Shown: positions 2,533 through 22,811, counted from the stretch's first letter. The stretch is DNA of 64,000 nucleotides from Burkholderiales bacterium (GCA_028868825.1 JAGWTU010000019.1:1-64000); one strand, 5' to 3'. Numbers and translations are program-made. Notes: generated from the sequence alone by a model not told the origin.

Positions 2533-3047
2533 ATTCAAAGTCATGCCATCGATGCGAAGCCGGCGACGCCGCTGGAGAAGAAACTTGAAGCGGGCGAGAG
2601 ATCTGCTTAACCAGTTGAGGTCGGTTCTCGGCAGTCTTCCCGCCGGAAGTCAACAGCAGTTCTTCGCTAGTCCCAGGGGCAGCCTGGGAGGAGTGACTCC
2701 ACGCTTGGCGCTGCTTCAGGGACGAATAGTAGCGGTGTTGAAGTCGGCGAACGGATTCGTAGAGCGCTAACCGCAGGTGTCTTCGGCCTACCGTCTTGGA
2801 CTGACGCTCTTGGTCCGATCGACAGTGCCCCGGGTTTCCTCGGCTAGGCGTCGTCAGCGGCCTGGGTCCGGACGGTCAAGTGCCCCCCCGGTAGCAAGAA
2901 GTCGGCCAAGATGCCGAACCCTGGGCTCGCAGGAGGTCGTCTTGTCCTTGGGCAGCCCTGTTCACTCCGGCGAGAATATCGTCCCGCCGCATGTGATCAT
3001 GTGGCCAGATGCCCGATCCGGGCTGTTGCGAGACGACTCCCCCACCC

Positions 3048-4601
3048 ATGATCGAAGACCTCAAACGAACGCTCTGGGCCACCGCCGACAAGCTCCGCGC
3101 CAACATGGATGCCGCCGAGTACAAGCACCTGGTGCTCGGCCTGATCTTCCTCAAGTACATCTCTGACACGTTCCAGGCCAAACGCACCGAGCTGACCGTG
3201 CGCTTCGCTGACCCTACCGACGAGTACTTCTTGGCCGACAGCACGCCCGAACTGTTGGCTGCGGAGCTAGAGGATCGCGACTACTACCGTGAGGTGAACG
3301 TCTTCTGGGTGCCCGAGGCCGCCCGCTGGGAGGCGTTGCGTGCCGCAGCCAAGCAGCCCGACATCGGCAAGCGCATCGACGATGCCTTGTCGTTGATCGA
3401 GGCCGAGAACGCCAAGCTCAAGGGCATCCTGGACAAGCGCTTCGCGCGGGCCCAACTGCCTGACGGCAAGCTCGGCGAACTGGTCGACCTGGTGTCCACC
3501 ATCGGCTTCGGTTCGTCGGCGGCCGAGGCGCGCGACGTGCTGGGCCAGGTCTACGAGTACTTCCTGGGCATGTTCGCCAGTGCCGAAGGCAAGCGAGGCG
3601 GCCAGTTCTACACGCCACGCAGCATCGTCAAGACTCTGGTGGCCGTGCTGGCACCGCACCATGGCAAGGTGTACGACCCGTGCTGCGGCAGCGGCGGCAT
3701 GTTCGTACAGAGCGAAGAGTTCATCCTGTCGCACGGCGGTAAGCTCGGCGACGTGGCCATCTTCGGCCAGGAGGCCAACCCGACCACCTGGCGCTTGGCG
3801 GCGATGAACCTGGCCATTCGCGGGATCGACTTCAATCTCGGTCGCGAGCCGGCCGACACCTTCACGAAGAACCAGTTCCCCGACCTGCGCGCCGACTTCA
3901 TCCTGGCCAACCCGCCATTCAACATCAGCGACTGGTGGCACGCCAGCCTGACCGGCGACCCGCGCTGGGTGTACGGCGACCCGCCGCAAGGCAACGCCAA
4001 CACCGCCTGGCTGCAGCACATGCTGTGGCACCTGAAGCCCGGCGGCCGCGCCGGCATCGTGCTGGCCAACGGCAGCATGAGCAGCAGCCAGAACAACGAA
4101 GGCCAGATCCGCGCGGCGATGGTGGAAGCCGACGTGGTGGAAGTGATGATCGCGCTGCCCGGTCAGCTGTTCTTCAACACGCAGATCCCGGCCTGCCTGT
4201 GGTTCCTGGTCAAGGACAAGCCTCGGCGCAAGGGCGAGGTGCTCTTCATCGACGCGCGCAAGCTAGCCACCATGATCAGCCGCGTGCAGTGCGAGTTGAC
4301 GGACGAGGTGATTGCCCGGCTGGCCGGCACCGTGGCCGCGTGGCGCGGCGATGCGGGTGCCGGTGAGTACGCGGACGTGGCGGGCTACTGCCGCAGCGTG
4401 ACGCTGGCCGAGATTGCCGAGCACGGCAACGTGCTGACGCCGGGCCGCTACGTGGGCGCGGAAGCGGTGGACGACGACGACGAAGGCTTCGAGGCCAAGA
4501 TGCGGGCGCTGACGGAGAAGCTGGGCGAGCAGATGGCGAAGGGGGCGGAACTGGATGCGGTGATCCGCGCCAAGCTCGGGGGGCTGGGGTATGAGTGCTG
4601 A
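3048..4601 (+). CDS. hsdM: Type I restriction-modification system, methyltransferase subunit HsdM
   Basis: Start MIEDLKRTLWATADKLRANMDAAEYKHLVLGLIFLKYISD. Motif I 'DPCCGSGGMF' and motif IV 'NPPFN'. Confidence 0.96.
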   Translation: MIEDLKRTLWATADKLRANMDAAEYKHLVLGLIFLKYISDTFQAKRTELTVRFADPTDEYFLADSTPELLAAELEDRDYYREVNVFWVPEAARWEALRAAAKQPDIGKRIDDALSLIEAENAKLKGILDKRFARAQLPDGKLGELVDLVSTIGFGSSAAEARDVLGQVYEYFLGMFASAEGKRGGQFYTPRSIVKTLVAVLAPHHGKVYDPCCGSGGMFVQSEEFILSHGGKLGDVAIFGQEANPTTWRLAAMNLAIRGIDFNLGREPADTFTKNQFPDLRADFILANPPFNISDWWHASLTGDPRWVYGDPPQGNANTAWLQHMLWHLKPGGRAGIVLANGSMSSSQNNEGQIRAAMVEADVVEVMIALPGQLFFNTQIPACLWFLVKDKPRRKGEVLFIDARKLATMISRVQCELTDEVIARLAGTVAAWRGDAGAGEYADVAGYCRSVTLAEIAEHGNVLTPGRYVGAEAVDDDDEGFEAKMRALTEKLGEQMAKGAELDAVIRAKLGGLGYEC

Positions 4602-5946
4602 TTGGCCGCGGTTCACCGTCGCCGAACTGCAGGCCGCTCGTCACCTACTTGTCGAGGATGGCAATCACGGCGAATACCGGCCGCGATCGGAAGAGTTTGC
4701 GACTGCTGGCGTGTCGTTCATCCGTGCCGCAGATATGGATGACGGCCGAGTGCTTTTCGAGTCGGCCGCGTGCATCAACAACGTCGCGCGAGCGCGCATC
4801 CGAAAGGGCGTTGGTCGCCCGGGCGACGTGCTGCTTTCGCACAAAGGCACCGTTGGCAAGGTCGCGCTCGTGCCTGAGCGATGCCCGGACTACGTCTGCT
4901 CACCGCAGACCACCTTCTGGCGAGTTCTCGATGAATCGATCCTTGATCGTGCGTACCTGTTCGCGTACCTGCAGAGTCAAGAGTTCAAGGATCAGCTGGC
5001 GTCCCGCAAGGGCGAGACCGACATGGCTGACTATGTCAGTCTGACCGCTCAACGCCAACTCACTGTTCCGTTGCCGCCGCTCAAGATCCAGCGCTCGATC
5101 GGTGTGCATTTGTCGATGCTCAGCAACCGCATAGCCCTCCTGCGCGAAACCAACGCCACCCTCGAAGCCATCGCTCTGGCGCTATTTAAGTCATGGTTTG
5201 TCGACTTCGATCCCGTTCGCGCCAAGCAGCAGGGGTTGGTGCCACTAGGGATGGACGAGCCAACGGCGGCTTTGTTTCCAGCTACGTATGAAGAGTGGCA
5301 GGCGCAGGCTTCACGGCCAGCCGTGAGCGACATGATTGCGTCTGGCTGGCTCCTGATCGGCGACGGCTACAGAGCCAAGAACAACGAGTTAGGGCGACCA
5401 GGCGTGCCTTTCGTTCGTGCTGGCGATCTCGATGCAGGTCAAATTACGCCAACGAAGGACTACCTCGCGGAACCGGCAGTTAGGGCGGCGAGCACGAAGA
5501 TGGCCAAGCCTGGCGACACGGCGTTTACGTCAAAGGGCACAATCGGTCGATTCGCTTTTGTCGACACCGCTTCGGGCGAGGCGGTGTACTCGCCACAGGT
5601 CTGCTTTTGGCGCAGCCTGCGGACAGACATTGTCGAGCCTGCTTACCTTCACTACTGGATGAAGAGCGCGGCCTTCAAGGTTCAGGTCGATGCAGTAAGG
5701 GGGCAAGCGGCGATCATGGACTACGTGAGCCTGGCAGATCAGCGACGCATGCGCCTGGATATTCCGCCGATCCGAGTTCAAAAGCGCTTCGCTGAAATTG
5801 CTCAGGTGATTATCGAACAGATCTCGTGCAATCGGTCCCTTGCGACCTACTTGACGTCAGTCCGCGACTCCTTGCTCCCCCGACTGATCTCTGGCCAACT
5901 ACGACTGACAGAAGTCGCAACGCAAACCACCGACGTACTCACATGA
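4591..5946 (+). CDS. hsdS: Type I restriction-modification system, specificity subunit HsdS
   Basis: Two target-recognition-like halves, each ending in a conserved region (LPPLKIQRSIGVHLS..., IPPIRVQKRFAEI...). Overlaps hsdM by 11 nt. Confidence 0.93.
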   Translation: MSADWPRFTVAELQAARHLLVEDGNHGEYRPRSEEFATAGVSFIRAADMDDGRVLFESAACINNVARARIRKGVGRPGDVLLSHKGTVGKVALVPERCPDYVCSPQTTFWRVLDESILDRAYLFAYLQSQEFKDQLASRKGETDMADYVSLTAQRQLTVPLPPLKIQRSIGVHLSMLSNRIALLRETNATLEAIALALFKSWFVDFDPVRAKQQGLVPLGMDEPTAALFPATYEEWQAQASRPAVSDMIASGWLLIGDGYRAKNNELGRPGVPFVRAGDLDAGQITPTKDYLAEPAVRAASTKMAKPGDTAFTSKGTIGRFAFVDTASGEAVYSPQVCFWRSLRTDIVEPAYLHYWMKSAAFKVQVDAVRGQAAIMDYVSLADQRRMRLDIPPIRVQKRFAEIAQVIIEQISCNRSLATYLTSVRDSLLPRLISGQLRLTEVATQTTDVLT

Positions 5947-8489
5947 CGCCTTCTGTAACACAGCGCAATGCTTTGTGGGATACCTTTCTTCAGCGATGGC
6001 CCCTTGAGGTCCTGAGCCAGCTCACGCTGCCTCAATACACGGCAGCCGGTGACAAGGATTGCTTCACGCAATGGCTGGAATCCAAGACGGAAGGCCTGGG
6101 CTCAATTTGGGGCGGCTCGTCGTTCAAGTTCGGCGTGTATTCCCGCAAGGACCAATCCGATCAAGTTGACGGCGAGGGGCGGCGGTTCAGCGCGGAATAC
6201 GCCTGGATGGGCAAGTACGGCGATACGGCGGAAGCGGCGTTTGCCAAGGTTCACGGCATCATCCTCGGAATTGCCAAGGCTGCCAGAGCTGGTGATCTGG
6301 CCGCCGTCGAGGCCGCTGACCTGGGCACCGTGACGAAATGGAAGATCGCGTTCCTGTACCAGGACAGGGCGAAGCCGTCCGTGTTGCCGATCTACAAGCT
6401 GGACAGCTTGCGCAGCGTCGCTGGTGCTGTCGGCAAGCCGACATGTGCCGAGCTTCATGCCAAGCTGATGGCGCAGCGGGGCGAGGTGGACGTGCTGACC
6501 TACGGTGACAAAGTGTGGTCTGAGATTCAGGCCATCGAATCAGCAAAGCTGACCACGGATCAAGCGCACACGTACTTCAAGGGTTCGGATCGATTCAAGC
6601 CCATCAAGCCACCCACCGAAAGGATGGCTGGTTTCCGAAGCCTGAGCGGCGCCGAGATTGCTCTTGCCCTCGACAACAAGACACCCACGCTGTACCTCAG
6701 CCCCGGCGCATGGCTTGACGATGTCAAAAGCGTCCTCGGTGGTGTCGTTCCCTATGCGCCCGACAAACCTCGTTCCAGCAACATCGCGGCCAACGCGCCA
6801 GCGCTGGCTGTTGGCAACCCCATCGTCAAGCTGACGGTGCCGGACATGGCTGCGTTGCACAAACTATGCGACGCCTACGAGGGAGCCGTTTCACCATCGA
6901 TCGGCATTGCCCAGCCGGCGCCCGCAGCGAAGGAGCCCGAGTTGGACACGCCGCCTTTGAATCAGATCCTCTATGGGCCACCCGGCACAGGTAAGACCTT
7001 CGAGACGATCAACGCTGCACTTGCGATCCTTGATCCGATGTACCTGGCTGCGAACAAGGCCGATCGTGCGGCGTTGCGCCGCCGCTTCCTGGAGTTGGAA
7101 CGTGGGAAGCGCGTCCGCTTCACGACCTTTCACCAGAGCTTCAGCTACGAGGATTTCGTCGAAGGCATCCGGGCTAACGTGGACGACGATGCCGGGGCGC
7201 CCACGCAGGGCGTGAGTTACACGATCGAGAACGGCGTGTTCGCCGACCTGTGCCGAGACGCACGTCGCGACAAGCAGCTTGAAGAGCATGTCGGTATTCG
7301 CGAAGACGCCAAGGTTTGGAAGGTGTCCATCGAGGAGGCCAGCAGCTCTGGCGAGACGCGGAAGTACTGTTTGTCGCACGGCGAGGCGCGCATAGGCTGG
7401 CCGAAGGCTGGTGATCTCAACACGGCCGACCTGAACGAAGTCGGTCAGAAGCTCGGCACGAAGGTACAGAGTTCTCTCGACAACTTCAGCCAGCAGATCA
7501 CCATCGGCGACATCGTGGTGTGCTTGGCATCGACGACGACCATCAGTGCGGTGGGTGTTGTCACTGGTGACTACGAGTACACGCCCAAACCTCCAGCCGG
7601 CGTGCGAGAAGACTACGTGAATAGGCTACCGGTGCGATGGCTCGTCACGGGCATCAATTTCAACATCCTGGAAATCAACAAAGGCGTTCGGTTGACGCTG
7701 CAGACGGTCTACCGCCTATCCCGGTTCACATGGCCCGATCTTCTGCAAGCGCTCACATCTGCCGGCGTGAAGTTGAGCGTGCCGACGCAGCCGTCGGCGC
7801 CGACCCACGAGCCATACGTACTCATCATCGACGAGATCAACCGTGGGAACGTTTCGCGCATCTTCGGTGAGCTGATCACATTGATCGAGCCATCCAAGCG
7901 GGCCGGTGCCGACGAGGCACTGGAGGCGATCCTTCCCTATTCGAAGAAGCCCTTCAGCGTGCCAGCCAACGTCTACCTGGTCGGAACGATGAACACCGCT
8001 GATCGTTCTCTTGCCGGCCTTGATGTCGCACTGCGCAGGCGTTTTGTGTTTCGCGAAATGCCGCCGCGGCCCGAACTGCTGGACGGCGTCACGGTGAACG
8101 GAATCGACGTGAGCAAGCTGTTGATCGTGTTGAACCAGCGCATCGAGGCGCTTCTCGACAGGGAGCACTGCCTCGGACACGCCTACTTCATGCCGCTCGA
8201 AAGCGATGCCAGCCTGATGCGACTGGCCTCGATTTTTCGGGAGCAGGTGCTGCCCTTGTTGCAGGAATACTTCTTCGAGGACTGGCAGCGTATCCAATGG
8301 GTGCTCAACGACCACCGCAAGCCCAACCCTGAGCACCGCTTCGTTCGGGCCCAACCCTGGAACGTAAAGGAGCTGTTCGGCGCCGACGTGACGGCATCGG
8401 GCACCAGGCAGGCGTGGTCGGTCAACGAAGACGCGTTCGCGCTGCCCGAAAGCTATCTTGGCCTGATTGACCACGCGCTGCCGCCGTGA
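5943..8489 (+). CDS. mcrB: McrB-like AAA+ ATPase with a KFG-type N-terminal domain and an EVE-like insertion
   Basis: ATGA overlap with hsdS. Walker A 'LYGPPGTGKT', Walker B 'VLIIDEINRGNVSRIFGEL', 'GTMNTADRSLAGLDVALRRRF' (McrB signature region). Confidence 0.92.
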   Translation: MTPSVTQRNALWDTFLQRWPLEVLSQLTLPQYTAAGDKDCFTQWLESKTEGLGSIWGGSSFKFGVYSRKDQSDQVDGEGRRFSAEYAWMGKYGDTAEAAFAKVHGIILGIAKAARAGDLAAVEAADLGTVTKWKIAFLYQDRAKPSVLPIYKLDSLRSVAGAVGKPTCAELHAKLMAQRGEVDVLTYGDKVWSEIQAIESAKLTTDQAHTYFKGSDRFKPIKPPTERMAGFRSLSGAEIALALDNKTPTLYLSPGAWLDDVKSVLGGVVPYAPDKPRSSNIAANAPALAVGNPIVKLTVPDMAALHKLCDAYEGAVSPSIGIAQPAPAAKEPELDTPPLNQILYGPPGTGKTFETINAALAILDPMYLAANKADRAALRRRFLELERGKRVRFTTFHQSFSYEDFVEGIRANVDDDAGAPTQGVSYTIENGVFADLCRDARRDKQLEEHVGIREDAKVWKVSIEEASSSGETRKYCLSHGEARIGWPKAGDLNTADLNEVGQKLGTKVQSSLDNFSQQITIGDIVVCLASTTTISAVGVVTGDYEYTPKPPAGVREDYVNRLPVRWLVTGINFNILEINKGVRLTLQTVYRLSRFTWPDLLQALTSAGVKLSVPTQPSAPTHEPYVLIIDEINRGNVSRIFGELITLIEPSKRAGADEALEAILPYSKKPFSVPANVYLVGTMNTADRSLAGLDVALRRRFVFREMPPRPELLDGVTVNGIDVSKLLIVLNQRIEALLDREHCLGHAYFMPLESDASLMRLASIFREQVLPLLQEYFFEDWQRIQWVLNDHRKPNPEHRFVRAQPWNVKELFGADVTASGTRQAWSVNEDAFALPESYLGLIDHALPP

Positions 8490-9793
8490 ACTCCGTAGTC
8501 AGCGTTCGCGAATACGCGTGGTTGACCACCGCGCCAGTCGAGCCGTCGCTCGACTGCGCCCAGGTGACTACCAGCGCGTTCGACTATCTCTGCAAACTGA
8601 GCGAATCGTTCTCGCGTTCCGGCGCCCGCCTGGTGCAAGTAGAGGGCCGCCAATCGCTGAGCCTCGACAGCTACGTCGGAGTCATTCAGACGCCGTGCGG
8701 CACTACGCTGGAGATCGTGCCGAAGCATCACGAAATCGGCGACAGCCTGCCAATGTGTCGCGCACTTCTGCGGAAGATGATCCAGGCCACGTTGGACCTG
8801 CCGACCCGCGAGGTCGGCATCGCCGCGCTGGAGCACTTCGACGCGCCGCTGTCCGAGTGGGTGATGCGCCGCTACCTTGCCGAACTCGACCAACTGGTCA
8901 AGCGGGGCCTGCGCTTTGACTACCATCGCGTTGGAGAGGAGCTTCCGTTCCTTCGCGGCCAGCTGAACATCATGGCGCAGTTGCGCCAGGCACCCGGCCG
9001 GGAACACCGCTTTCATGTGCGCCACGATGTCTTCCTACCCGACCGGCCAGAGAATCGATTGTTGAAGCTGGCACTCGACCGCGTTCGGTTGAGCACGAAA
9101 GACGCCGACAACTGGCGGTTGGCCCAGGAGCTGAGCTTCATGTTGGCCGAGGTGCCCGCGAGCCAGCAGGTACAGGCAGACCTGCGCGCATGGGGAACGG
9201 ATCGGCTGATGGCGCACTACCGCTCCGCAAAACCATGGTGTGAGCTGATCTTGAACCGCTGGATGCCGCTGGCCGTGCTCGGCGAGCAGCATGGCCTCAG
9301 CTTGCTGTTCCCCATGGAGAAGCTGTTCGAGAAGTACGTGGCCGTGTGGTTGCGCAGCAGAGTCAAGACAGAGACGCAGATTCGAACGCCGGCCGCCAGT
9401 GAATCGCTGTGTAGGCATGCGGACAACGACATGTTCAGGCTGGAGCCCGACGTGCTCATCAGCTCCGGCGCACAGCAGTGGGTGCTGGACATGAAGTGGA
9501 AGCGGATCGACTCGGCCGACGCGCAGAACAAGTACAAGCTCAGCCAAAGCGACTTCTACCAAATGTTCGCCTACGGCCACAAATACATGCAGGGGGCTGG
9601 CACCATGGCGCTGATCTACCCGAAGTCCGCGTTGTTCGCCGAGGCTCTCAAACCGTTCTATTTCAGCCCGGCGTTGCAGTTGCGGGTTTTGCCCTTCGAC
9701 CTCGACAGCGACACCCTGGTTGGATGGCAGGCGAGTGATCTCCCCCTGCGCCGCCCGGCTGCAGTGGAGAATGGGGTAGCCGTGCATTTCTGA
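8486..9793 (+). CDS. mcrC: McrC-like PD-(D/E)XK nuclease subunit
   Basis: GTGA overlap with mcrB. McrC-like 'RLEPDVLISSGAQQWVLDMKWKR' and 'SQSDFYQMFAYGHKYM'. Confidence 0.92.
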   Translation: MNSVVSVREYAWLTTAPVEPSLDCAQVTTSAFDYLCKLSESFSRSGARLVQVEGRQSLSLDSYVGVIQTPCGTTLEIVPKHHEIGDSLPMCRALLRKMIQATLDLPTREVGIAALEHFDAPLSEWVMRRYLAELDQLVKRGLRFDYHRVGEELPFLRGQLNIMAQLRQAPGREHRFHVRHDVFLPDRPENRLLKLALDRVRLSTKDADNWRLAQELSFMLAEVPASQQVQADLRAWGTDRLMAHYRSAKPWCELILNRWMPLAVLGEQHGLSLLFPMEKLFEKYVAVWLRSRVKTETQIRTPAASESLCRHADNDMFRLEPDVLISSGAQQWVLDMKWKRIDSADAQNKYKLSQSDFYQMFAYGHKYMQGAGTMALIYPKSALFAEALKPFYFSPALQLRVLPFDLDSDTLVGWQASDLPLRRPAAVENGVAVHF

Positions 9794-9832
9794 GAGGCCC
9801 GCAAAAGGGTTCAGACGGGAGGGTTTGTACCG

Positions 9833-12800
9833 GTGACTGAGGACCAGCTGGAACATGAAGCCCTTGGCTGGCTGGCCGATGTGGGCTGGCAGCACCGCTA
9901 CGGACCCGACTTGGCGCCCGACGGCGCCGCGCCTGAGCGCGACAACTACCGGCAGGTGCTGCTGATTGGGCGCCTGCGACAGGCCGTTGCGGCGCTGAAT
10001 CCGGCCGTGCCGCTGGCGGCGCGCAATGATGCCCTCAGGCAGGTGGTGGACTTGGGCACACCGGTGCTGCTGGCTGCCAACCGACAGTTCCATCAAATGC
10101 TGGTGAGCGGCGTGCCGGTGCAGTATCAGCGCGACGGCGAAACGCGGGGCGACTTCGTTCGCCTCGTCGACTGGGCCGATCCGACGCGCAACGAGTGGCT
10201 GGCCGTCAACCAGTTTTCCGTCGCCGGGGCGCACCACACGCGCCGGCCAGACATCATCCTGTTCGTCAACGGCCTGCCTCTGGTGCTGATCGAGCTGAAG
10301 AACCCAGCCGACCAGAATGCCGATGTGTGGAAGGCCTTCCATCAGATCCAGACCTACAAGGAGCAGATCGCCGACGCCTTCCAGTACAACGAAGTACTCG
10401 TGATTTCGGACGGCACCGATGCGCTGCTGGGGTCGCTCTCAGCCGACAGTGAGCGTTTCATGGCCTGGCGCACCATCGACGGCGTCGCGGTCGACCCGCT
10501 CGGGCCCTTCAACGAACTGCAGACGCTGGTGCGCGGCGTGTTGGCGCCGACCTACCTGCTGGACTACCTGCGCTTCTTCGTGCTGTTCGAGGATGACGGC
10601 GGCCTGGTCAAGAAGATCGCCGGCTACCACCAGTTCCATGCCGTGCGCGCTGCCATCTCCCAGGTAATAGCTGCGTCCCGCTCTGATGGTCTGCCCAGCG
10701 TGCGCGGCAAGGGCGGCGTGGTCTGGCACACGCAGGGCAGCGGCAAGAGCATCACCATGACCTGCTTCGCGGCGCGGGTGATGCGAGAGCCGCTGATGGA
10801 AAACCCGACCATTGTCGTCATCACCGACCGAAACGACCTTGACGGGCAGCTTTTTGGCGTCTTCTCCTTGGCGCAAGACCTGCTGCGCGAGAAACCGGTG
10901 CAGGCCAGCACGCGGCAAGAGCTGCGGGGATTGCTCGGCCAGCGCCCTTCCGGTGGCATCGTGTTCGCGACGATCCAAAAGTTCATGCCGGGCGAAGATG
11001 AGGATGCCTTCCCGCTCTTGTCGGATCGCCGCAACATTGTGGTGATCGCCGATGAGGCGCACCGTACGCAGTATGGTTTCGAGGCCAAGCTGAAGACGGT
11101 CAAGCAGCGGCCCGCTGGTTCCGCGTTCACGACAGTACTGACAACCGGTGCCGGCCAGCCTGCAGCGCACAAGGCCGAGTTTGCGCCGACGGTCGACCGC
11201 TACCAAGTTGGTTACGCCCAGCACCTGCGCAACGCGCTGCCCCATGCCACGTTCGTGGCCTTCACGGGCACCCCTGTGTCGGGCGAGGACCGCGATACTC
11301 GTGCCGTGTTTGGCGACTACATCAGCGTCTACGACATGCAGCAGGCCAAGGAGGATGGCGCGACAGTGGCCGTCTACTATGAGAGCCGGTTGGCCAAGCT
11401 GGGGTTGAAGGCAGACGAACTGGCCACCATCGACGACGAAGTCGACGAACTAGCCGAAGACGAGGAAGAGAGCCAGCGGGCCAAGCTCAAGAGTCGCTGG
11501 GCCGCACTGGAAAAGGTGGTCGGTGCCGAGCCACGCATTGCGAGCGTCGCAGCGGACCTGGTGGCGCACTTCGAGGAGCGCGGCAAGGCTCAGACCGGCA
11601 AGGCTATGGTGGTGGGCATGAGCCGCGAAATCTGTGTCCACCTCTACAACGAGATCATCAAGCTGCGGTCGACCTGGCACAGCGCTGACCCGGAGCAGGG
11701 TGCCATCAAGATCGTCATGACGGGCTCGGCGAGCGACAAGGCGCTCCTGCGCCCGCACATTTACAGCGCCCAGGTTAAGAAGCGCCTGGAGAAGCGATTC
11801 AAGAAGCCTGATGACCCGCTGCGCATGGTGATTGTGCGCGACATGTGGTTGACAGGGTTCGACGCGCCGTGCGTGCACACGCTGTACATCGACAAGCCGA
11901 TGAAGGGCCACAACCTCATGCAGGCCATCGCCCGTGTGAACCGGGTGTTCAAGGACAAGCAGGGCGGCTTGGTGGTGGACTACATCGGCATTGCCAACGA
12001 GCTGAAGTCGGCGCTGAAAGAGTACACCGCCAGCAAGGGTCGAGGCCGACCCACGGTGGACGCTCACGAAGCCTATAGCGTGTTGGCAGAGAAGCTCGAC
12101 GCGCTGCGCGGCATGCTGGCCGGCACGAACGGGCACGGCTTCGACTACAGCGGCTTCTTGACAGGTGGCCACAAGACGCTGGCAGGCGCCGCCAACTTCG
12201 TGTTGGGCATCAAGGACGGCAAGAAGCGCTTCGCCGACCTCGCACTGGCGATGAGCAAGGCCTTTACCCTTTGCTGCACGCTCGACGAAGCCAAGGTGGT
12301 GCGTGAGGAGGTGGCCTTCTTCCAGGCAGTGAAGGTCATCCTGACCAAGCGCGAGATCAGCGCGCAGAAGAAAACGGACGAACAACGTGAACTGGCCATC
12401 CGGCAGATCATCAGCTCGGCTGTCGTGTCGGAAGAGGTGGTCGACATCTTCGACGCCGTCGGACTGGACAAGCCCAACATTGGCATCCTCGACGACGCCT
12501 TCCTCGCCGAGGTGCGCAACCTGCCCGAGCGGAACTTGGCGGTCGAACTGCTGGAGCGGCTGCTCGAAGGCGAGATCAAGTCTCGCTTCGCCGGCAACGT
12601 GGTCCAAAACAAGAAGTTCTCGGACATGCTGACCGATGTCGTGCAGCGCTACCAGAACCGATCCATCGAAGCTGCGCAGGTGATGGAAGAGCTGGTGCAG
12701 ATGGCCAAGAAGTTCCGGGAAGCCGCCGCACGTGGAGAGCAGCTTGGTCTCAACGAAGACGAGGTGCGCTTCTACGACGCGCTTGCGAACAACGAGTCGG

Positions 12801-13030
12801 CCGTACGAGAGCTAACGGATGAAACTCTGAAGAAGATCGCACACGAACTGGCCGAGAACCTGCGTAAGAACCTGACAGTCGATTGGTCAGCCCGAGAAAG
12901 CGTGCAGGCCAAGCTTCGTCTCATGGTTAAGCGCATCCTTCGAAAATACAAGTACCCCCCGGATCAACAAGAGGCTGCTGTCGACCTTGTATTGCGCCAA
13001 GCTCAGTCCATGGCAGAGGCTTTGTCATGA
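9833..13030 (+). CDS. hsdR: Type I restriction enzyme, endonuclease/translocase subunit HsdR
   Basis: GTG start. '[20 protein letters not shown]' nuclease core, '[12 protein letters not shown]' Walker A, 'DEAHRTQYG' motif II, 'FTGTPV' motif III. Confidence 0.95.
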
Positions 13031-13058: not shown

Positions 13059-16000
13059 ATGAGCACTAGCCCTTCGGTCGGCGAACGCGCGGCGGTTTCT
13101 GGGTACACCCTCCAGTACCTCATCGCGGCCGACCTCATCTATGCGGAGATCTCTGCCGGAACGCTCGAATGGGTTGGTCTTGTTGATCCGGATGCGGGCC
13201 GTGTGGATGACGTGCTGATCGCTACTTCCGGCTGGATCGATGCCTACCAAGTAAAGTGGGCACAGCCGAAGTCAACCTACACATTTGCAGCGTTTACCAA
13301 TCCGACGGAAAAGAAACCGTCCTTATGGGTTCAACTGGCGGACGGGTGGAAGGCGCTTAGCAAGGGACATCCTGAAAGGCAGGCTAGGGTTAATTTCGTC
13401 ACGAACGAGATTGCCTCACCGAACGACAAATGTCCCGACACCGGTGGGTCGAAGCTTCCCTTTCAAGAGCTATGGAGTGAAGCACTACTTCCCTTAAGCA
13501 GCGGCTCGTCCGTGATCGGCTCTGTGCCGCCAAAGTACTCGGCTGGATTGGCGCGACTAGCGGATCTGAGCGGTCTCAGCACCACGGAGTTCCATGAATT
13601 TCTCTCGAAGTGCAGGCTGCAGTTCGACAGGCCAGACCCTCGCCAAATCCTGAGGGCCGACAAGAGACGCTCGGGAGAACTGGACGACATCGAGCGACTT
13701 GCCGCCTATCTTCAGTCACGAGTCGCCAGCTCAAGAGGCGGTGTCAGGATCGACCGCGAAGACATCCTCAGGGATCTTGGCTGGCAGTCTCGCCTAGCCC
13801 AGCGCTTCAAGCACTACTTTCACGTCGACGAGTCGCTCTACAAAGACATTCAGCCAACCGTCAGCGAACTTCGACAAGTAGTCCATGAACGCCGGTTCGG
13901 ATACGTCGCTCTGCTCGGAGGACCTGGGTCCGGGAAGTCAACCACTCTGACTCAGACCTTTCGTTACGCGAGTAGTGTTCGGCTAATTAGCTACTACGCA
14001 TTCATTCGCAATGATCTATCCACTGGGCGAGGTGAGGCATCCAGCTTCTGGCAGGACATTTATCTCGCTGTACGACAGAGAGGCATCTACTCCCCAGGAT
14101 CGATGCCTCGGTCCTCTAGCGAGTATCGACTGGGCGTAAGCGAGCAACTCGCATTGCTCGAAGAAGATTGGAGGAATCGACAAGTAGTGACGATATTGCT
14201 GATCGACGGACTCGATCACATCGATCGCGAGCAGCGGCCGACGGAATCCTTGATCAGTCAGTTGCCGCTACCCGAGCAGATTCCCTCCGGTGTCCTCGTC
14301 GTACTTGGCAGCCAGACCCTGAATCTGCAAGGGTTAGCACCTTCAATAGTCGCTCATTTGAGCGAACCAGGTCGGACTCTTCAGATGGGTAGACTGACTC
14401 GAGCAGACGTCTTCAGCATCGGCGATGCCGCCGCCACCGCACCGGCGCTATCGCATCAACAGAAGGAACTGCTGTATGGCCTGACGAATGGCTACCCGCT
14501 CGCGACGATGTATCTTCTCAGTCGCCTAAAGGGTCTTGCTCCAGCCGATATCGATTCACTGCTCGCTTCCGACAGCGGATTCTCAGGAAACATCGATACC
14601 ACCTACGCGTCGTACTGGAATGCCATCAACGATTCAGCAGTTCCTGTGCTCCTTGGACTGCTGTGTCGAATGCGCGTTGGGTTCGACATAAGGGAAGCAG
14701 TTACCTGGGTACCTCACCTGGACGCTGCCGCCTTCGTCCGGCAAACTAGGCATTTCTTTCAGACCAACGATGGGAATCGCTGGTCGTTCTTCCACAACAG
14801 CTTTCGGCAGTACCTGATCCGCCGCACATCGGAAGATCTACTTGGCAACTATTGCGAGTTGAAGGATCGGGCGCAACATTTGCGACTCGCTGAATTGGCA
14901 CAACGCAGCGAGCGTCGAAGCGCCTTTGAGAGAGAAGTCATCTACCATCTTTACGAGGCTGGCGAATTTAGACGTGTGCTGGACCAGGCCACGCAGAGTA
15001 TTTTCAGAGAGCAGTTCTTTGATCTACGCAGCTTCCGCCAGATCGCCGACGATATCGGCTTGGTGGTTAGGTCTGCCAAGAACGAGCTAAGCGGCATCGG
15101 CCTCCTTCGCGCATGGCTCATCGACAAGGAGCTGCACGAGCGGGAGTACTGCCTTGAGATCAGTTCCTTTCGTTCTTCGATCGACGCCTTCCTCGATACC
15201 GAGTCGCTACTCAGCTCCATCATCGACCATAGCGGACTACTGGTCCCTCGTGCGCAGGCGATGACATGCGCGCGCAGACTGCTGGATGCGGGGCTTGCAC
15301 AAGCTTCACGCAGAGTCTTCGATCTTGCTGAGCCACTTGATCTTCTTTCCGGCATTGAAAAGTCAAAGCCTCGGGATGGTGATCAAGATTTCCTGGAGGA
15401 TTGGGTCGACCTTGCTCACAGCATGCGCAGCCCGAATGCCATAGCAGATGCCATTGCCAACCTCAAGGTCGAGGCGTTTGACCAAGACGAGGAGGTACGT
15501 GCAACAGAACGGCTAAAGCGTGCGCTCTATGTTCGCCTCGCAAAGCAGGTCTATGTGCTGGACCAAGCAGAGTTCGCGCGGTTGATGGAGCACCCAGCCA
15601 TTCGATCGTTCGCAAGCGAAGTTCGCACAGAAGTCGATTGGTACCTACTTGGGGAGATCGCTCACCCACATCTCCGCTCATCTGCAATTTCGCGGATCCT
15701 CCAGTCGCCGGACCTCGACCAGTTAAATGAATCGGATCGACTCTATCTTGCGGAACAGATGCGTCGATGTGACTTTGAGAGGGAACGTGTCTTAGAACTC
15801 GTCAAGGACGTTAACCAGCCTGCGCTAGCAGACCCATCGAAGAATCTGTCATTGGAGGGTGATAGGCGATTTCATTTGTTCGCGGACCGCCTGCGATTCA
15901 ATCGCCTTCGCTCAGCGCTTGGACTTGCAGTCACTCCAGAGGCGGCAATTCCGTGGCCCGACGAACTTGGTTTGCGAAACGGTGCTCGCTTTGAGCGGAT

Positions 16001-19000
16001 GGTTGTCGTCGTAGCCAATCTTTGGGGCGCTGCGCTGAGCGGACGACTGTACGACTTTGACGTCATACGTCTCACTCTTCGAGATGCACTTCGTGTTTAC
16101 TACACCACGAGGGAGAACTCAGACCCGTCTTCGGGCTGGTACTTCTACCGTGCGGCTGCAAAGGAGTACTTTGAGTGTCTCGTTCTGGCAGTCGCTGCAC
16201 ATGGCCCTGCACAACTTGAGTCTCTTGGCCGAGAATTTGATGCGGTGTGGGATGCTCATGAGAGTCGGTCAACTTGGACTGCTGATATCCGTCGCAGCAT
16301 CGCCGTTGCATTGTTTCGGAGCGGAGACAGCGAGGACCGCTTGGTGGCGCGACTTGAGGGGATCGCTGAGTCCGAGACATTGCCAGACGACCTTCAAGAG
16401 AGGCTCGAAAGCCTCATTGAGACCGCTCGTAAGTGGCAACTGGCTGGAGAACCGGCACGGGCGAAGGCTCTGTTGGCGCCAACCATCAAGGCGTCATTCG
16501 GCATTCATCATCACAAGGATCGTCAGTTCCAGACCTGGGTTTCCTGGCTGGACAAGGCGTCAGCCGAGGGTGCAACAGACATCATCGCCGAATGCAATCA
16601 GTTCGCCTCCGCGCTGCGCGCCATTGTTGATCTTGGCAGGGGAAGAGGCTCGCAGGAGGCCGCCTCACATCTTCTTTCGATTGCGACCAGAGCAAGCCCT
16701 GCGTTTGCACTGCAGCTCCGCGAGTCCTTGTTCCAAACGGGCACTGTCTCGTACGGTGCTGCATGCCAGGGATTCATCGAAGGTGTGCTCGGCCGCCACG
16801 ATTGCGACCCATTGCCAGTCGTTGACTTCCTTGCGAATGTCGGCGTTGGTGCGGAGCTTCCTTCCGTCGAAGGTATCCTGCCGAAGCTTGTTCAGGCACT
16901 TGTGCGTCAGTCCGGCTCCGCCACCGTGCGCTCCACCCTCGAACCTCTAGTCGCGAGCGTTCTCGTGGATGAGTTCGAGTGTCAGAGAGGCACCTGGCTG
17001 CGCTTATTGCATCGCGAGGTGCAGAAGTTGGAAATCGCTTGGCCTGAGTTGGCGTCACTTGCTCAAGGGCGTCCCGAGATCGAGAGGGGCACCCCGATGA
17101 AGGTCAAGTTGCGTGATGGCAGCGAGATCCTTGAACGCGATTTCCGAAGGCAGATCGTTGATCTCGCGTCTCTCAAGACTGCCATCCAGCTATCCGAGCC
17201 GCAGTCGTTTTACGGGTGGGACAGAGCCACAGAAGTAGTCGTTCGATCCGCTACGCTGGAGCAACTTGAAACTCTGATGCCACTAATCGACCTGCTTGGA
17301 TCACGAGCTCATCTAGTCGCGGCGCAGATAGTCGATCGACTCGCTGAACTCGGTTCAGGAACGTTGGCACAAGGACTTGCCGACAGGTATCTTCAGTCGT
17401 CTACTCCTAGTGGTTGGATCGAGTACTTTGATGGTGGTACGCGTCTGCACATTGCGCGCGCACTGGTCCGCATAAGCCCGGGACGGCGACCAGACTTGTT
17501 CCGTCTTCTGGCAGACGACTATGTCAGCGGTCTGCGGAATCCTCGCGATCTAGTGATGGTCCTTGAGGATCTGCTTCCAATTGTGTTTGATGAAGTGCCG
17601 TGGATCGAAGTCTGGCACGAGCTTCGTGAGCACATAACCCAACTGTCTGAGTTCACTGAGCACGAGCCTGCGCCGCCGTCGACTCTGACCGAATTCGGTT
17701 CCACTCAGGCGCTCGTTGACTCGGCGGTCCTGGACTACCAACTTCCAGTCCCCGAGATGGAGACTCGGTTCATCCGGCTGATTACACTTTGGCTTGAGGA
17801 TTCACGAATGCGGGAACCGACTTTGGAATCGATTGGTCGGTCGATCGATGAGTACTTGCTTGACTCTCACGCGATTGTGCCCATCTACTTGGCGAGAAGA
17901 TCGCTTGATGTCGCTTCGCCAAAGCTTGCAGCCCTTTTGCAGCGACTCGATGCTTCACCGGACATCTCTGTTCGTGCCTACACCCGAGCGATCCTCCGTC
18001 GCAATGTTTCCTCTGACGATTTGCTGCGCTCAACGATGGGCGAAGCACCCGTGGTGTTTGGAATGGATCTTCAGAGCAGCGCTTCTGAGACCCCTATCGT
18101 TGGATTGACGCCTGAGTTTGTGCAACAGAACACCTCCAAGCCCCGCACTCCGGCTGAATTCTTCAGGGTGTGGTTGCCAGAACTGAAGTGGGTTTCCAGC
18201 GTGACTGATGTTCCAGTGGACAACTTGCTTGAGCGCGCGCACCAGATCGCTGAGGTGCTGTTGGGCCGATCGAGATGGGGGACCGATGCCGAGGAACGAC
18301 TTAGAAGCCATCTTGCCGGTATTGAGTGGAAGATTACCTTTCGCCGCCCATGGGCCGCAGTTGGTGAATCAGCGTTGTTTTGTCTTCTGTCGGAGTTGGT
18401 GGACTTTGGTTTGCTTCAGCCCGAACTCGTTCGAGCAACCGATTTTTGGATGTTCTTCGACGAGAGACTTTTGCGCTCTACCCCATCTGCCCGGCCTAAG
18501 GCATGGATTTCCGATCTTCCGGACAGGTCGCATGGCACACCGATTAAAGAGTGGGTGTCGGCGGCGGCACCCCATGTTTCACAGTCTTCGTTCTGCAAGG
18601 CCTTGAATGACGGGTTCGTTGTTGCGGCGGAGCACTCCAGGTTCGTTCGGCATGAATGGGAGATGCCAGAGGAACTTCGCACGGTGGTACTTCGAGCCCC
18701 TGGCTCCTCAGTTTTAGGAGCCATCGATCAGCTCAGTGATGTGCTGCCCGGATACTGCCGTAACCGGGCTGACCTCTATCCCCGAACCTCGGAGGCATTC
18801 GATGTGCAAGCGCCTGTTATCGGAGACAACCAATTCACATTGCGGGTCGGACCAAAACGCTGGCTTGCGATAAACCCTGCGTTCGCTGCGGCGCGGGGCT
18901 GGACCTTCTTAGGCCGGGATGATTTCGCGTGGTTGAATGAGAGCGGCGAAGTCGTTGCTCGGACAATTTACTGGCGCGACGGGCCCGGTCGGCGGTCCCC

Positions 19001-19190
19001 GCCGAAGCTTGACGAAGTGTTTGCTGAAGGCTGGATAGTGATCATCCGTCGGGACGCAATCGGGCTTGTTGGAAAGTCAGTGTCGCTTCAACTTGACGAG
19101 TACGTATCCAGAAGCGCAAGCGTTCGCGAGGAGACCGGACAAGAAAGGGCATCGGCTAGTGCACATTGGTCTGAGGTGGTCACCTTGTAG
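13059..19190 (+). CDS. Giant nuclease-STAND NTPase (Avs-like): N-terminal Cap4/DUF4297-like nuclease, NACHT/STAND NTPase, long C-terminal sensor-like region
   Basis: Intact 2043-aa ORF. N-terminus 'GYTLQYLIAADLIYAEI...VDDVLIATSGWIDAYQVKW' (D-x(n)-QxK). Walker A 'LLGGPGSGKSTTL' (from ~aa 287), Walker B 'VVTILLIDGLDHIDRE'. About 1500 aa of Leu-rich, largely helical-looking C-terminal sequence. Confidence 0.82.
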   Translation: MSTSPSVGERAAVSGYTLQYLIAADLIYAEISAGTLEWVGLVDPDAGRVDDVLIATSGWIDAYQVKWAQPKSTYTFAAFTNPTEKKPSLWVQLADGWKALSKGHPERQARVNFVTNEIASPNDKCPDTGGSKLPFQELWSEALLPLSSGSSVIGSVPPKYSAGLARLADLSGLSTTEFHEFLSKCRLQFDRPDPRQILRADKRRSGELDDIERLAAYLQSRVASSRGGVRIDREDILRDLGWQSRLAQRFKHYFHVDESLYKDIQPTVSELRQVVHERRFGYVALLGGPGSGKSTTLTQTFRYASSVRLISYYAFIRNDLSTGRGEASSFWQDIYLAVRQRGIYSPGSMPRSSSEYRLGVSEQLALLEEDWRNRQVVTILLIDGLDHIDREQRPTESLISQLPLPEQIPSGVLVVLGSQTLNLQGLAPSIVAHLSEPGRTLQMGRLTRADVFSIGDAAATAPALSHQQKELLYGLTNGYPLATMYLLSRLKGLAPADIDSLLASDSGFSGNIDTTYASYWNAINDSAVPVLLGLLCRMRVGFDIREAVTWVPHLDAAAFVRQTRHFFQTNDGNRWSFFHNSFRQYLIRRTSEDLLGNYCELKDRAQHLRLAELAQRSERRSAFEREVIYHLYEAGEFRRVLDQATQSIFREQFFDLRSFRQIADDIGLVVRSAKNELSGIGLLRAWLIDKELHEREYCLEISSFRSSIDAFLDTESLLSSIIDHSGLLVPRAQAMTCARRLLDAGLAQASRRVFDLAEPLDLLSGIEKSKPRDGDQDFLEDWVDLAHSMRSPNAIADAIANLKVEAFDQDEEVRATERLKRALYVRLAKQVYVLDQAEFARLMEHPAIRSFASEVRTEVDWYLLGEIAHPHLRSSAISRILQSPDLDQLNESDRLYLAEQMRRCDFERERVLELVKDVNQPALADPSKNLSLEGDRRFHLFADRLRFNRLRSALGLAVTPEAAIPWPDELGLRNGARFERMVVVVANLWGAALSGRLYDFDVIRLTLRDALRVYYTTRENSDPSSGWYFYRAAAKEYFECLVLAVAAHGPAQLESLGREFDAVWDAHESRSTWTADIRRSIAVALFRSGDSEDRLVARLEGIAESETLPDDLQERLESLIETARKWQLAGEPARAKALLAPTIKASFGIHHHKDRQFQTWVSWLDKASAEGATDIIAECNQFASALRAIVDLGRGRGSQEAASHLLSIATRASPAFALQLRESLFQTGTVSYGAACQGFIEGVLGRHDCDPLPVVDFLANVGVGAELPSVEGILPKLVQALVRQSGSATVRSTLEPLVASVLVDEFECQRGTWLRLLHREVQKLEIAWPELASLAQGRPEIERGTPMKVKLRDGSEILERDFRRQIVDLASLKTAIQLSEPQSFYGWDRATEVVVRSATLEQLETLMPLIDLLGSRAHLVAAQIVDRLAELGSGTLAQGLADRYLQSSTPSGWIEYFDGGTRLHIARALVRISPGRRPDLFRLLADDYVSGLRNPRDLVMVLEDLLPIVFDEVPWIEVWHELREHITQLSEFTEHEPAPPSTLTEFGSTQALVDSAVLDYQLPVPEMETRFIRLITLWLEDSRMREPTLESIGRSIDEYLLDSHAIVPIYLARRSLDVASPKLAALLQRLDASPDISVRAYTRAILRRNVSSDDLLRSTMGEAPVVFGMDLQSSASETPIVGLTPEFVQQNTSKPRTPAEFFRVWLPELKWVSSVTDVPVDNLLERAHQIAEVLLGRSRWGTDAEERLRSHLAGIEWKITFRRPWAAVGESALFCLLSELVDFGLLQPELVRATDFWMFFDERLLRSTPSARPKAWISDLPDRSHGTPIKEWVSAAAPHVSQSSFCKALNDGFVVAAEHSRFVRHEWEMPEELRTVVLRAPGSSVLGAIDQLSDVLPGYCRNRADLYPRTSEAFDVQAPVIGDNQFTLRVGPKRWLAINPAFAAARGWTFLGRDDFAWLNESGEVVARTIYWRDGPGRRSPPKLDEVFAEGWIVIIRRDAIGLVGKSVSLQLDEYVSRSASVREETGQERASASAHWSEVVTL

Positions 19191-19297
19191 CCGGCGGTTG
19201 TCGGGTGCATCCTTGCTCATGAAATCTGAAAAGTGCCATAGTATCCGGCACCCGACTCAGCCATGTTTTTTAGCAGTCGTTGTTTGATTTGGTAGAA

Positions 19298-19774
19298 ATG
19301 AGTGCAATCGACACCAACGCCATAGGGGAGCGGGGAGAGGCCATCTTCTTCACCCGCATGACGGCCTTGCATGGTCAATATCCGTTGTTCCGACCGGCCT
19401 TCCTTGGGGACAAATGGGCAGTGGCTGACTTTGCAGTTGAGTTGGTTGGTCGACCTGGTAAGTACTTCTTGGTTCAGGTCAAGTCCACGACTCGCGGCCT
19501 GAACGCAAGAAGTCGGCTGCGCGTTGGAGTCTCTACTGAGAGATACCAGCAACTCGTCAATGCTTGGATTCCGTCGTACGTCGTGGGCATCAATGACGCT
19601 ACGGAGGAAGCCTATATCTGGGCGGCTGGACCCCGTGCCGCTGGCCCAACCTCGCTCAAGACTCAGTACCCATTGCGGGATGCCGCAGTTCGACAACAAC
19701 TTCATGATGAAGTTCTAAGTTTCTGGCGCACGGTGAGCGCCCGCGTCAGGCCCTGGGTATCTCGCCTCTACTAG
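19298..19774 (+). CDS. DUF4365-like small putative nuclease
   Basis: 'GERGEAIFFTRMTAL...DKWAVADFAVELVGRPGKYFLVQVKSTT': D-x(n)-QxK core typical of DUF4365 proteins. Confidence 0.68.
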   Translation: MSAIDTNAIGERGEAIFFTRMTALHGQYPLFRPAFLGDKWAVADFAVELVGRPGKYFLVQVKSTTRGLNARSRLRVGVSTERYQQLVNAWIPSYVVGINDATEEAYIWAAGPRAAGPTSLKTQYPLRDAAVRQQLHDEVLSFWRTVSARVRPWVSRLY

Positions 19775-19783
19775 GAAATCAAC

Positions 19784-20236
19784 ATGGGCAGCAATCAACC
19801 TTGGTTTGTTGGTCAACGGGCGGAAAGCCTCGCGCTAATCTTCCTTACGCGCAGGCCCACACTGCACGTACAGAAGATGACAGCTGACTTGGGGATCGAT
19901 TACCTACTCGCTATCGGCGAGGCTCCGTCTCGGTACTTCGGACTTCAAGTTAAGGGGGCGGCTAAGATGTCGAACCTAGTGGGTAAATCTGGCCACCTGA
20001 TTAAGACTGTTGCCGAGCCACTTCAGCGATACGCTCGGGATTCTGCGTTTCCAATCGCGATTCTGGCTATCGACATTACTTCTGAGGCCATGCTCTTTGG
20101 ATGGATCAAGGCCCCAGCAAAGAGTCGCTTGGTCAGCAGCACCAGCCAGACTATTTCGATGCGACCGGCAACGGACAAAGAACTTGATCTCGCTGTTCAG
20201 CAAGTGAACGACTGGTACGACTCTGGCCCGAGATAA
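19784..20236 (+). CDS. DUF4365-like small putative nuclease (second copy, divergent)
   Basis: Starts 9 nt after the previous stop. 'GQRAESLALIFLTRR...ADLGIDYLLAIGEAPSRYFGLQVKGAA': same D-x(n)-QxK pattern. Confidence 0.65.
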   Translation: MGSNQPWFVGQRAESLALIFLTRRPTLHVQKMTADLGIDYLLAIGEAPSRYFGLQVKGAAKMSNLVGKSGHLIKTVAEPLQRYARDSAFPIAILAIDITSEAMLFGWIKAPAKSRLVSSTSQTISMRPATDKELDLAVQQVNDWYDSGPR

Positions 20237-20330: not shown

Positions 20331-22811
20331 ATGGACTTGCTCATTGTTACGGCGCTGACCGAGGAGCAGCAGGTAGTGGACGCTGTTTTAAGGGAAAGCG
20401 CCACCTTCCGGGGATTAGGTGATCACTATGTGAGCATTTTCGACTTTGATCGAGGGGACGGCAGGATCTACCGAATTGGCTCAGCGAGTGCTCACCAAAT
20501 GGGCGCGACCAAGATGGGTGCGTATTGCGCTCCCATATTCAAGGACTTGTCGCCCGAAGCCGCAGTGCTAGTTGGAATTGCGGCCTCTGCTGACCCTTCG
20601 ATAGCGAGCTTGGGCGACGTACCCTTCTCTAGTCACGTACTCAGCTTTGACGATATTGCGGTAGAGGCTGGCGTCCTCACTTTTCGAACCGAGGGCTACC
20701 CTACGCACCCTGAGATGCGCAAGGCTGTTGGCTCGCTGCGAACTTCGGTACACACATATGTGCCTTGGCGAAATGCATGCAAAGACACGATACCAAAGGT
20801 CGTCAAGTCGCTGAATGAATTGAGGCAGACGAAGATCACCCCTCCGGTTGACTACAGCCATCCGCACATCATCGTGGACGTGACAGCCGGGGGACCCTTT
20901 CTTATCCGAGATGCTGAGTTTAGGGACACGCTGAGCAAGAAGATGCCAGCGGCAACGAAGATTGCGATTTCAGCACCGGTCCATCCCAAACTGGTCTCGA
21001 TTGAAATGGAGTCACATGGCTTCATGAATGCTGCGCACGAGCAGGGGATTCAAGCCAGTGTACTCAAGGGTATAAGTGATGACGGCGACGCGAACAAGAG
21101 GCAGCTTGAGAAGCAGACTGGGGGGTTCTATCGCGCATATGCATGCTCAAACGCTGTGCTAGCAGTGCTGCATATGCTTCGCAGGGCACCCGTCGTTGAT
21201 TCCGATATGGTGCGAGAGCAGCGTACACAGGATGTCCGCGAAGTCATTCGTCAGCCCCAATCGCCCTCTCCCGCTCGTGTCATTTTGGATGGGGCCAAGC
21301 AGCAGATCTTGGCCTGTCCAGGAGTTATGGCAGTGGCAGTAAAGGAGGCGATTGTCGTGTTCGTTGAGGAGGGACATGATCCGCAACTGCCTGAATTGCC
21401 AGATGGCATCGCTATGGTCATTCGATACGTCCCACCAATCTCGCTTGCAGTTGGACCCTCAGCAATCGGAGGCATGCTAAGGGTAGCCGTAGGTACCGAT
21501 AAAGTCAGAAGCGGCCTAGGAGTTCGGGTCTCCGGTCGTGATGGACACTGCGAGGTGCTTACGACAAATCATGTGGTCAGTCGGTCCCTGCAGCAGCCTA
21601 CACCAATCCATGTGGCGCTTGGAGATCGACGGGTGCGAGCCGCGGTGTTGGAAACAGACCGCCTGCGTGACTTGGCCTTGCTGACAGTGGACCAGGCCCT
21701 GTGGGAGGCGGCACGCATTCGCTCGATCTCTCCTGGATTGCCTGAGCTTGGCGAGGAAGTGGTCATCCATCTTCCCGATGCGCTTGTCAGCGGGCGAATA
21801 AGCTCCGTTGACGGGGTCGCCAGTTTGCGCACGGATGCCTCTGCTGATGCCTCAATGTCTGTCGATGAGGTCTTCACGATTCAGACGGAGGGAAGTATTG
21901 AGTCCGGTCACTCTGGGGCATTGGTGACTACGGTGCTGGGGATTCCGATTGGCTTAGTTGTAGGCCAAGCTGCGTTGCACGACAGCGAGCAGCTTGTGCT
22001 CGGTGTTGCGATTTCTACCTTCCTGAGCACGAGGGAGTTGCGAGTGGACCTGCCACCGCTACGCGACAAGACACAAGTAGTTGTTGGCGTCCTGGTGGCT
22101 AGTGATCGAGATCTGAAGAGTCTGCTGCGACTGCTTCATGAGCCGGAAGTCCAACACGATTCGAGTGGTCGGACATATTGGGCGTCGCACGTGCCAAGCA
22201 CGAGCGAAACGACCGTGATCGTCACGCAGACTGGTGCAATGGGCAATGTAGCTGCGGCTCTTGGAGCCATGGCTCTCATTCTGCATGCTCGGCCTGATTG
22301 GATTCTCAGCGTGGGACTCGCAGGAGGCACTCGAACAGACGTTGGGCTTGGCGATGTTGTTGTCTCGGATAGCTTCGCTTCCCTTGAAGCGGGCAAGGGG
22401 ACCTTGGATGGCAAGGTGATTCGACGCTCAGTGACCCAACAAGGCTTAGCAATCGCGCGTTCGGTCGCTGGGCAAGCCTCGGCTCGTAGTCTCAGGCCAG
22501 ATGGCTCGGAAGACCGGTATGCAGTGCATGTCGGCCCTGTGGGATCTATTGACTCTTTGAATGAGAATTCGCGCCGCTTCTTTGCGGAACAGAGGAGAAC
22601 TCTTGCAGTTGAGATGGAGTCCGCAGGCGTTTTGGCAGCGGCCGAGCAGGAGCGTATCCCGTACTTGTCCGTCCGCGGAGTGGCGGACTTTGCCGATGAG
22701 GCGAAGCATGACGACTGGAGACCGTACGCCTCGGCAGCAGCGGCAAGTACGGCGATCGAAATCATTCGGCAAATCGCAGATGCGCCGCACGCCTCCCGAC
22801 GAACTCGCTGA
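20331..22811 (+). CDS. Three-domain protein: PNP/nucleosidase-like, trypsin-like serine protease, PNP/nucleosidase-like
   Basis: N-PNP: 'IVTALTEEQQVV', 'LVGIAASADPSIASLGDVPFSSHV', 'SIEMESHGF' (EMES from aa 225), 'LKGISDDGDANK'. Trypsin: 'TTNHVV' (H414), 'LRDLALL' (D447), 'ESGHSGAL' (S528). C-PNP: 'SVGLAGGTRTDVGLGDVVVSD', 'AVEMESAGV' (EMES from aa 761), 'VRGVADFADEAK'. Confidence 0.82.
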   Translation: MDLLIVTALTEEQQVVDAVLRESATFRGLGDHYVSIFDFDRGDGRIYRIGSASAHQMGATKMGAYCAPIFKDLSPEAAVLVGIAASADPSIASLGDVPFSSHVLSFDDIAVEAGVLTFRTEGYPTHPEMRKAVGSLRTSVHTYVPWRNACKDTIPKVVKSLNELRQTKITPPVDYSHPHIIVDVTAGGPFLIRDAEFRDTLSKKMPAATKIAISAPVHPKLVSIEMESHGFMNAAHEQGIQASVLKGISDDGDANKRQLEKQTGGFYRAYACSNAVLAVLHMLRRAPVVDSDMVREQRTQDVREVIRQPQSPSPARVILDGAKQQILACPGVMAVAVKEAIVVFVEEGHDPQLPELPDGIAMVIRYVPPISLAVGPSAIGGMLRVAVGTDKVRSGLGVRVSGRDGHCEVLTTNHVVSRSLQQPTPIHVALGDRRVRAAVLETDRLRDLALLTVDQALWEAARIRSISPGLPELGEEVVIHLPDALVSGRISSVDGVASLRTDASADASMSVDEVFTIQTEGSIESGHSGALVTTVLGIPIGLVVGQAALHDSEQLVLGVAISTFLSTRELRVDLPPLRDKTQVVVGVLVASDRDLKSLLRLLHEPEVQHDSSGRTYWASHVPSTSETTVIVTQTGAMGNVAAALGAMALILHARPDWILSVGLAGGTRTDVGLGDVVVSDSFASLEAGKGTLDGKVIRRSVTQQGLAIARSVAGQASARSLRPDGSEDRYAVHVGPVGSIDSLNENSRRFFAEQRRTLAVEMESAGVLAAAEQERIPYLSVRGVADFADEAKHDDWRPYASAAAASTAIEIIRQIADAPHASRRTR

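Follow-up and report, generated by a model that had tools for sequence, protein, structure and literature searches.

Avs1 and Avs3 are regarded as separate types of Avs receptor. Published work reports that Avs1 is activated by the viral terminase (PMC12799240), that Avs1 to Avs4 recognize the terminase large subunit, the portal or Ksap1 and act as nucleases, with Avs5 recognizing an early protein of jumbo phages (PMC12931631), and that the nuclease of SeAvs3 is of the DUF4297/Cap4 kind and is seen as a tetramer (PMC11291478). The locus studied here lies in a stretch of 64,000 nucleotides from a Burkholderiales bacterium (GCA_028868825.1 JAGWTU010000019.1:1-64000), referred to below as the window. 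Our analysis shows that its receptor protein belongs to a new, widespread, single-gene Avs-type lineage without a name in the curated libraries we searched. We consider it likely that the window protein is a stand-alone, NLR-like STAND receptor directed against phages, which is triggered by the terminase, cuts DNA and aborts the infection; a role in defense as such appears highly probable, and the terminase as its trigger, which we take from homology, has about an even chance.

The described system most similar in overall build is Avs3. Avs3a proteins, at about 2040–2190 residues, are close to the window protein in length and have the same domain order (Cap4-like nuclease, STAND NTPase, array, and C-terminal domain) at near-equal residue numbers, whereas the Walker B region reads IDAADN in Avs3 and IDGLDH in the window protein, the partner avs3b is absent from the loci of the family, and the family NTPase is nearer to Avs1b than to Avs3a. 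Avs1b has the closest NTPase and is, reciprocally, the next-best relative among plasmids; its array is homologous to that of the family, and the FH-x-SF and DGLD motifs are common to both. However, the N-terminus is trypsin-like in Avs1b and nuclease-like in our family, and Avs1b is encoded with Avs1a and Avs1c, whereas the family is found without Avs1c and with no consistent Avs1a. Avs2 (about 1400–1500 residues) shares only the general STAND layout, and Avs4, a shorter chain of 1541 residues, gives a much weaker fold match than Avs3. The nuclease domain family is also common to the Cap4 and HerA-DUF4297 nucleases, from which the window protein differs in having neither a SAVED domain nor a HerA partner and in its fusion to a STAND receptor. 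The features of the gene and of the restriction genes preceding it are collected in Table 1.

Table 1. Features of the receptor gene and of the upstream restriction genes, by position in the window (aa, residues of the window protein)
Feature	Position	Strand	Basis or remark
hsdM	3009-4601	+	profile searches
hsdS	4591-5946	+	profile searches
mcrB-like	5943 (likely ATG)-8489	+	likely start overlaps hsdS stop
mcrC	8486-9793	+	profile searches
hsdR	9833-13030	+	profile searches; receptor ATG 28 bp downstream
Avs-type STAND receptor-nuclease, 2043 aa, single ORF	13059..19190	+	translation, plasmid relatives, conserved motifs
N-terminal Cap4/DUF4297-like PD-(D/E)xK nuclease domain (predicted), ~aa 1-245	13059..13793	+	profiles, AlphaFold2, Avs3a N-terminus match
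Putative active-site motif D50-D51 ... Q64-x-K66	13206..13256	+	conservation
STAND NTPase and winged helix, ~aa 264-640	13848..14978	+	AAA_22 below cut-off, Avs1b profile, AlphaFold2, Foldseek
Walker A GGPGSGKST, aa 287-295	13917..13943	+	K293 and S294 invariant
Walker B LLIDGLDH, aa 380-387	14196..14219	+	D383-GLDH-387 invariant
FFHNSFR motif, aa 577-583, in winged helix	14787..14807	+	H579 in 72/72; AlphaFold2
Helical-repeat array, ~aa 641-1750, predicted sensor	14979..18308	+	AlphaFold2 from aa 1150; Avs1b/Avs3a array homology
C-terminal beta-containing domain, ~aa 1820-2020	18516..19118	+	AlphaFold2, conservation, Avs3a C-terminus alignment

Curated profiles identify little of the window protein. 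An AAA_22 match on the NTPase fell below the cut-off, and at the N-terminus Cap4_nuclease reached E 1e-3, under the Pfam cut-off, alongside a PADLOC SAVED_PDDEXK (Cap4) match at residues 11–125 (4e-7); beyond this nuclease part, profile search gave no match to a SAVED domain. Comparison of profiles also matched the N-terminus of the family to that of Avs3a (96.4%). Structural modeling with AlphaFold2 used 48 relatives and covered residues 1–640 and 1150–2043. The first model (pLDDT 91.2, pTM 0.85) has the NTPase and then the winged helix C-terminal to a nuclease domain composed of a helix (5–33), three strands (36–41, 52–56, and 59–66), a further helix (89–103), and a strand (108–115), in which D50-D51 stands right before the second strand and Q64-x-K66 closes the third; this order of elements and placement of the motif fit a PD-(D/E)xK core. 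The second model (pLDDT 84, pTM 0.87) consists of a helical array and a terminal domain containing strands, the latter marked in sequence by W1832, E1858, LAxNP, and GW.

When these models were compared with the PDB using Foldseek, the best match of residues 1–640 was 8dgc, a structure of Avs3 with the terminase of phage PhiV-1 (E 6.7e-21), followed by plant NLRs and Avs4 (8dgf, E 1e-9), with APAF-1 and MalT also among the matches. For residues 1150–2043, 8dgc was the sole entry at E <= 0.001 (E 1.9e-8, 982 columns), the other matches being generic repeat proteins. The TM-scores to Avs3 are moderate (0.43–0.51), as expected for long flexible arrays. Sequence searches of the PDB, whether by the protein itself or by profiles, returned P-loop and repeat noise, a weak STAND match and no Avs; Avs3 in the PDB was reached by the fold search alone.

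Across 72 full-length relatives, D50, D51, K66, K293, S294, D383, D386, H387, and H579 are invariant, Q64 is kept in 70, and W1832 is invariant or nearly so. The FFHNSFR motif, flanked by strands and a helix in the model and represented by an FHSSF-like motif in Avs1b, occupies a position that appears comparable to the MHD motif of NLRs, and any corresponding role is suggested by that analogy. An earlier note on this DNA had described a 2043-residue protein, had quoted the motifs VDDVLI...DAYQVKW (residues 49–67), GGPGSGKST, and LLIDGLDH, and had proposed a STAND layout resembling that of Avs proteins, in which a Cap4/DUF4297-like N-terminus of PD-(D/E)xK-like fold is combined with a long C-terminal sensor-like region; translation bears out the length and all of the motifs, and the Cap4 profile matches, the predicted structure, and the fold match to Avs3 agree with the rest.

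The same note could not assign the protein to Avs1 to Avs4 by eye and thought a new clade possible; a clade outside these four is supported at the level tested. The sole Avs profile matched was that of Avs1b, and this match was partial, its 66 bits lying far under the NCBIfam cut-off of 1500; an Avs1b profile match spans residues 271–756, the rest of the protein lying outside it. NCBIfam gave no Avs3 match for the window protein, and in PADLOC the Avs3 models matched neither family members nor the consensus of a part at E <= 10, the Avs3 model confirmed there being Avs3b. Avs2 showed no significant match along the protein in PADLOC or in profile–profile comparison; Avs4, which was compared by fold and by profile alone, had no PADLOC match.

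Profile–profile comparison drew on 4 sequences of Avs1b and 11 of Avs3a, the latter reached through an Avs3b match and plasmid relatives; as hhalign E-values here are those of single comparisons, we place weight on the scores relative to controls. The family aligns from position 7 to 2022 with positions 5–2049 of Avs3a, over 1837 columns, with a score of 363 (99.9%), column-shuffled controls scoring 27 at most; by part, the scores are 69 for the nuclease, 131 for the NTPase, and 188 for the C-terminal part. A single Avs3a sequence gave weak collinear pieces, and the full-length match needed the Avs3a profile. With Avs1b, family positions 264–1742 align with 207–1685 at a score of 490, the NTPase part reaching 397 as opposed to the 131 seen with Avs3a, and the C-terminal part alone scores 98 against 27 or less for reversed, shuffled, and Avs2 controls; the C-terminal tip of Avs1b has no similarity to the family that profile–profile comparison detects. 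Compared directly, Avs1b and Avs3a score about 61 in the NTPase and at the level of noise in the array. Since the two scarcely match each other and the family matches both, the family bridges Avs1b and Avs3a, as judged from these profiles. An assignment of the protein as a relative of Avs1b alone was dropped after the fold search and the Avs3a profile gave end-to-end similarity to Avs3.

Trees of the NTPase support the family as a clade at 0.88 without Avs3, and at 0.70 when rooted on Avs3 with two partial sequences included; the Avs1b clade is supported at 0.98–0.997, and the family and Avs1b are grouped at 0.96. By its NTPase sequence the family is thus placed as a clade adjoining Avs1b, in trees whose branches are long and in which the family node is moderately supported. 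Two partial relatives (L130 and L131), from two genomes of one phylum, pair with each other within the family clade of the second tree. A 615-residue protein on a Leptospira plasmid (L013:5869-7713), which has a D...QxK-like N-terminus, a related NTPase and no long array, lies outside the group formed by the family and Avs1b in the Avs3-rooted tree.

Alignment of one large family with both types would link the sensor of Avs1 to that of Avs3, and predicts a common ancestry of terminase sensing. We tentatively propose, with somewhat less than even confidence, that the family is the surviving link between the two, a single-protein receptor-nuclease that senses terminase, and that Avs1 descends from this stock, its nuclease having been replaced by a trypsin which activates a separate MBL nuclease. 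If so, the family merits an Avs type of its own. That the nuclease is common to Avs3 and the family suggests that Avs1, with its trypsin, represents the derived state, a reading that falls short of proof because Cap4-like domains move between systems. Exchange of effectors between relatives is found in the family itself: two Chloroflexi members (L062 and L071) that nest inside the family tree have N-termini unrelated to the nuclease, one helical and one with apparent membrane segments.

By analogy with the described receptors, the NTPase and winged helix would keep the window protein off at rest. On infection, the C-terminal array of about 1400 residues and the terminal domain would bind a phage protein that is conserved, the likeliest being the large subunit of the terminase; an exchange of nucleotide would then lead to oligomerization (to a tetramer in Avs3), which would pair the N-terminal Cap4-like nuclease domains for cutting of double-stranded DNA, so that the infection would be aborted. 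Oligomerization, nuclease activity, and an outcome of cell suicide are all carried over from these analogs, and the mechanism may differ in detail since the partner genes of Avs3 and Avs1 are missing. In 92 family loci we found neither Avs3b nor Avs1c, using models that recovered their own controls (8 control loci). A conserved partner gene was rejected, no neighbor occurring in more than 8 loci, and three weak matches to Avs1a (MBL) in L008, L037, and L081 look incidental.

As to the trigger, the earlier note had hinted at a new one. This is possible for the family and is not supported by our results: the sensor shares homology with its counterparts in Avs3 and Avs1b, each of which is reported to sense terminase, and this would make the terminase the likelier trigger. 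An appreciable possibility, though one well short of even, is that the architecture and the role in phage defense are as described and the array recognizes another phage protein, such as a portal, a capsid, or an early protein. The portal, Ksap1, and the Avs5 ligand are precedents among other Avs types, homology between arrays does not require a common ligand, and within the family it is the array whose sequence is conserved least; the C-terminal part is 14–27% identical to that of the window protein within the family, and triggers could therefore differ between members. However, the only significant structural neighbor of the sensor is the terminase-bound Avs3, and profile homology ties it to two terminase sensors.

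A genome scan with the single window sequence found no relatives. An alignment-based scan of one genome per species found 133, the best 80 of which were kept, and the 72 full-length relatives used for conservation represent about ten phyla; as relatives were selected by peptides of the NTPase and winged helix and limited to these 80, members with other effectors are possibly under-sampled. The relatives come from Pseudomonadota, Bacteroidota, Actinomycetota, Chloroflexota, Planctomycetota, Cyanobacteria, Nitrospirota, Verrucomicrobiota, and further phyla, the phylum of short metagenome contigs being uncertain. In a draw from the class of the window, 3 of 387 genomes matched. Relatives on plasmids occur in Nitrosococcus, Vibrio cholerae, Rhizobiaceae, Rhodococcus, Sphingobium, and Enterobacterales, some of the last being clinical, and are annotated as "ATP-binding protein", as hypothetical protein, or not at all; plasmid relatives of full length show 28–32% identity across about 98% of the protein. 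Protein length is near-constant across the family. Two plasmid copies, from V. cholerae (L014) and K. pneumoniae (L015), end early, at about 1025 and 1083 residues, near insertion sequences. Three viral contigs from IMG/VR (L114, L115, and L116) carry a member that is long or full-length. In L114 and L116, the two in which the integrase was identified, it is a large serine integrase close to the receptor gene, and one of the three contigs has a Sak4-like gene; this fits prophage cargo. The family is not named in PADLOC 2.0.0 or NCBIfam 2026, and defense surveys relying on these would miss it. Searches by the accessions of relatives, a locus tag, and Avs type names found no paper describing it; it may be present, without a label, in large Avs trees already published.

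Around the receptor gene, G+C is 0.55–0.64 at positions 1–24000 of the window, against 0.67–0.76 further on. Contig 17 starts at position 1 of the window, and the low G+C together with an integrase-like gene fits an acquired island that continues to the left beyond the end of the contig. At this contig end, 29–2532 (+) encodes an integrase-like protein of 689 residues (29–2098) and then a KfrA/DUF6262-like coiled coil, probably the island edge. A Type I restriction operon, in which mcrB-like and mcrC genes separate hsdS from hsdR, follows at 3009–13030 (+). The position of the receptor gene directly behind hsdR, on the same strand, and the many plasmid-borne relatives would suit a guard against plasmids or other mobile DNA, or a regulator of the adjoining restriction operon, in place of a phage sensor. 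We hold this to be improbable: restriction genes are mostly absent beside the relatives (hsdM-like neighbors in 4 loci, hsdR-like in 3), and the structure points to phage-protein sensors. The upstream restriction genes are context and no required part of the phage receptor that we favor. Beside the relatives, dsr1, a Lit-family protein, and an AbiE pair are annotated, and further neighbors are integrases and several defense-type genes, with matches to YhcG, SIR2/ThsA, LmuA, QatC, and restriction models; we report all of these as occurrences and claim no enrichment.

The reading frame of 2043 codons has 0 internal stops, and it remains open 5' of the ATG at 13059 as far as a TTG at 12987, with the homology of the family starting at the ATG. 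The ORF is real and intact, a chance ORF being ruled out by the relatives of full length that are encoded on plasmids. A degenerate or inactive copy might be suspected of a gene present once, on a contig of an incomplete assembly (5.84 Mb), and is very unlikely given the full-length frame and the retention of every family-invariant residue.

Downstream of the receptor gene, two adjacent small proteins (19280–19774 and 19784–20236, +), each with a weak DUF4365 match, have no PADLOC match and no similarity to Avs3b; they lie between the receptor and a gene at 20331–22811 (+). The latter encodes 826 residues with a nucleoside-phosphorylase domain, in two PNP_UDP_1 stretches, and a trypsin-like protease in the middle of the protein, an unusual fusion reminiscent of the proteins of conflict systems.
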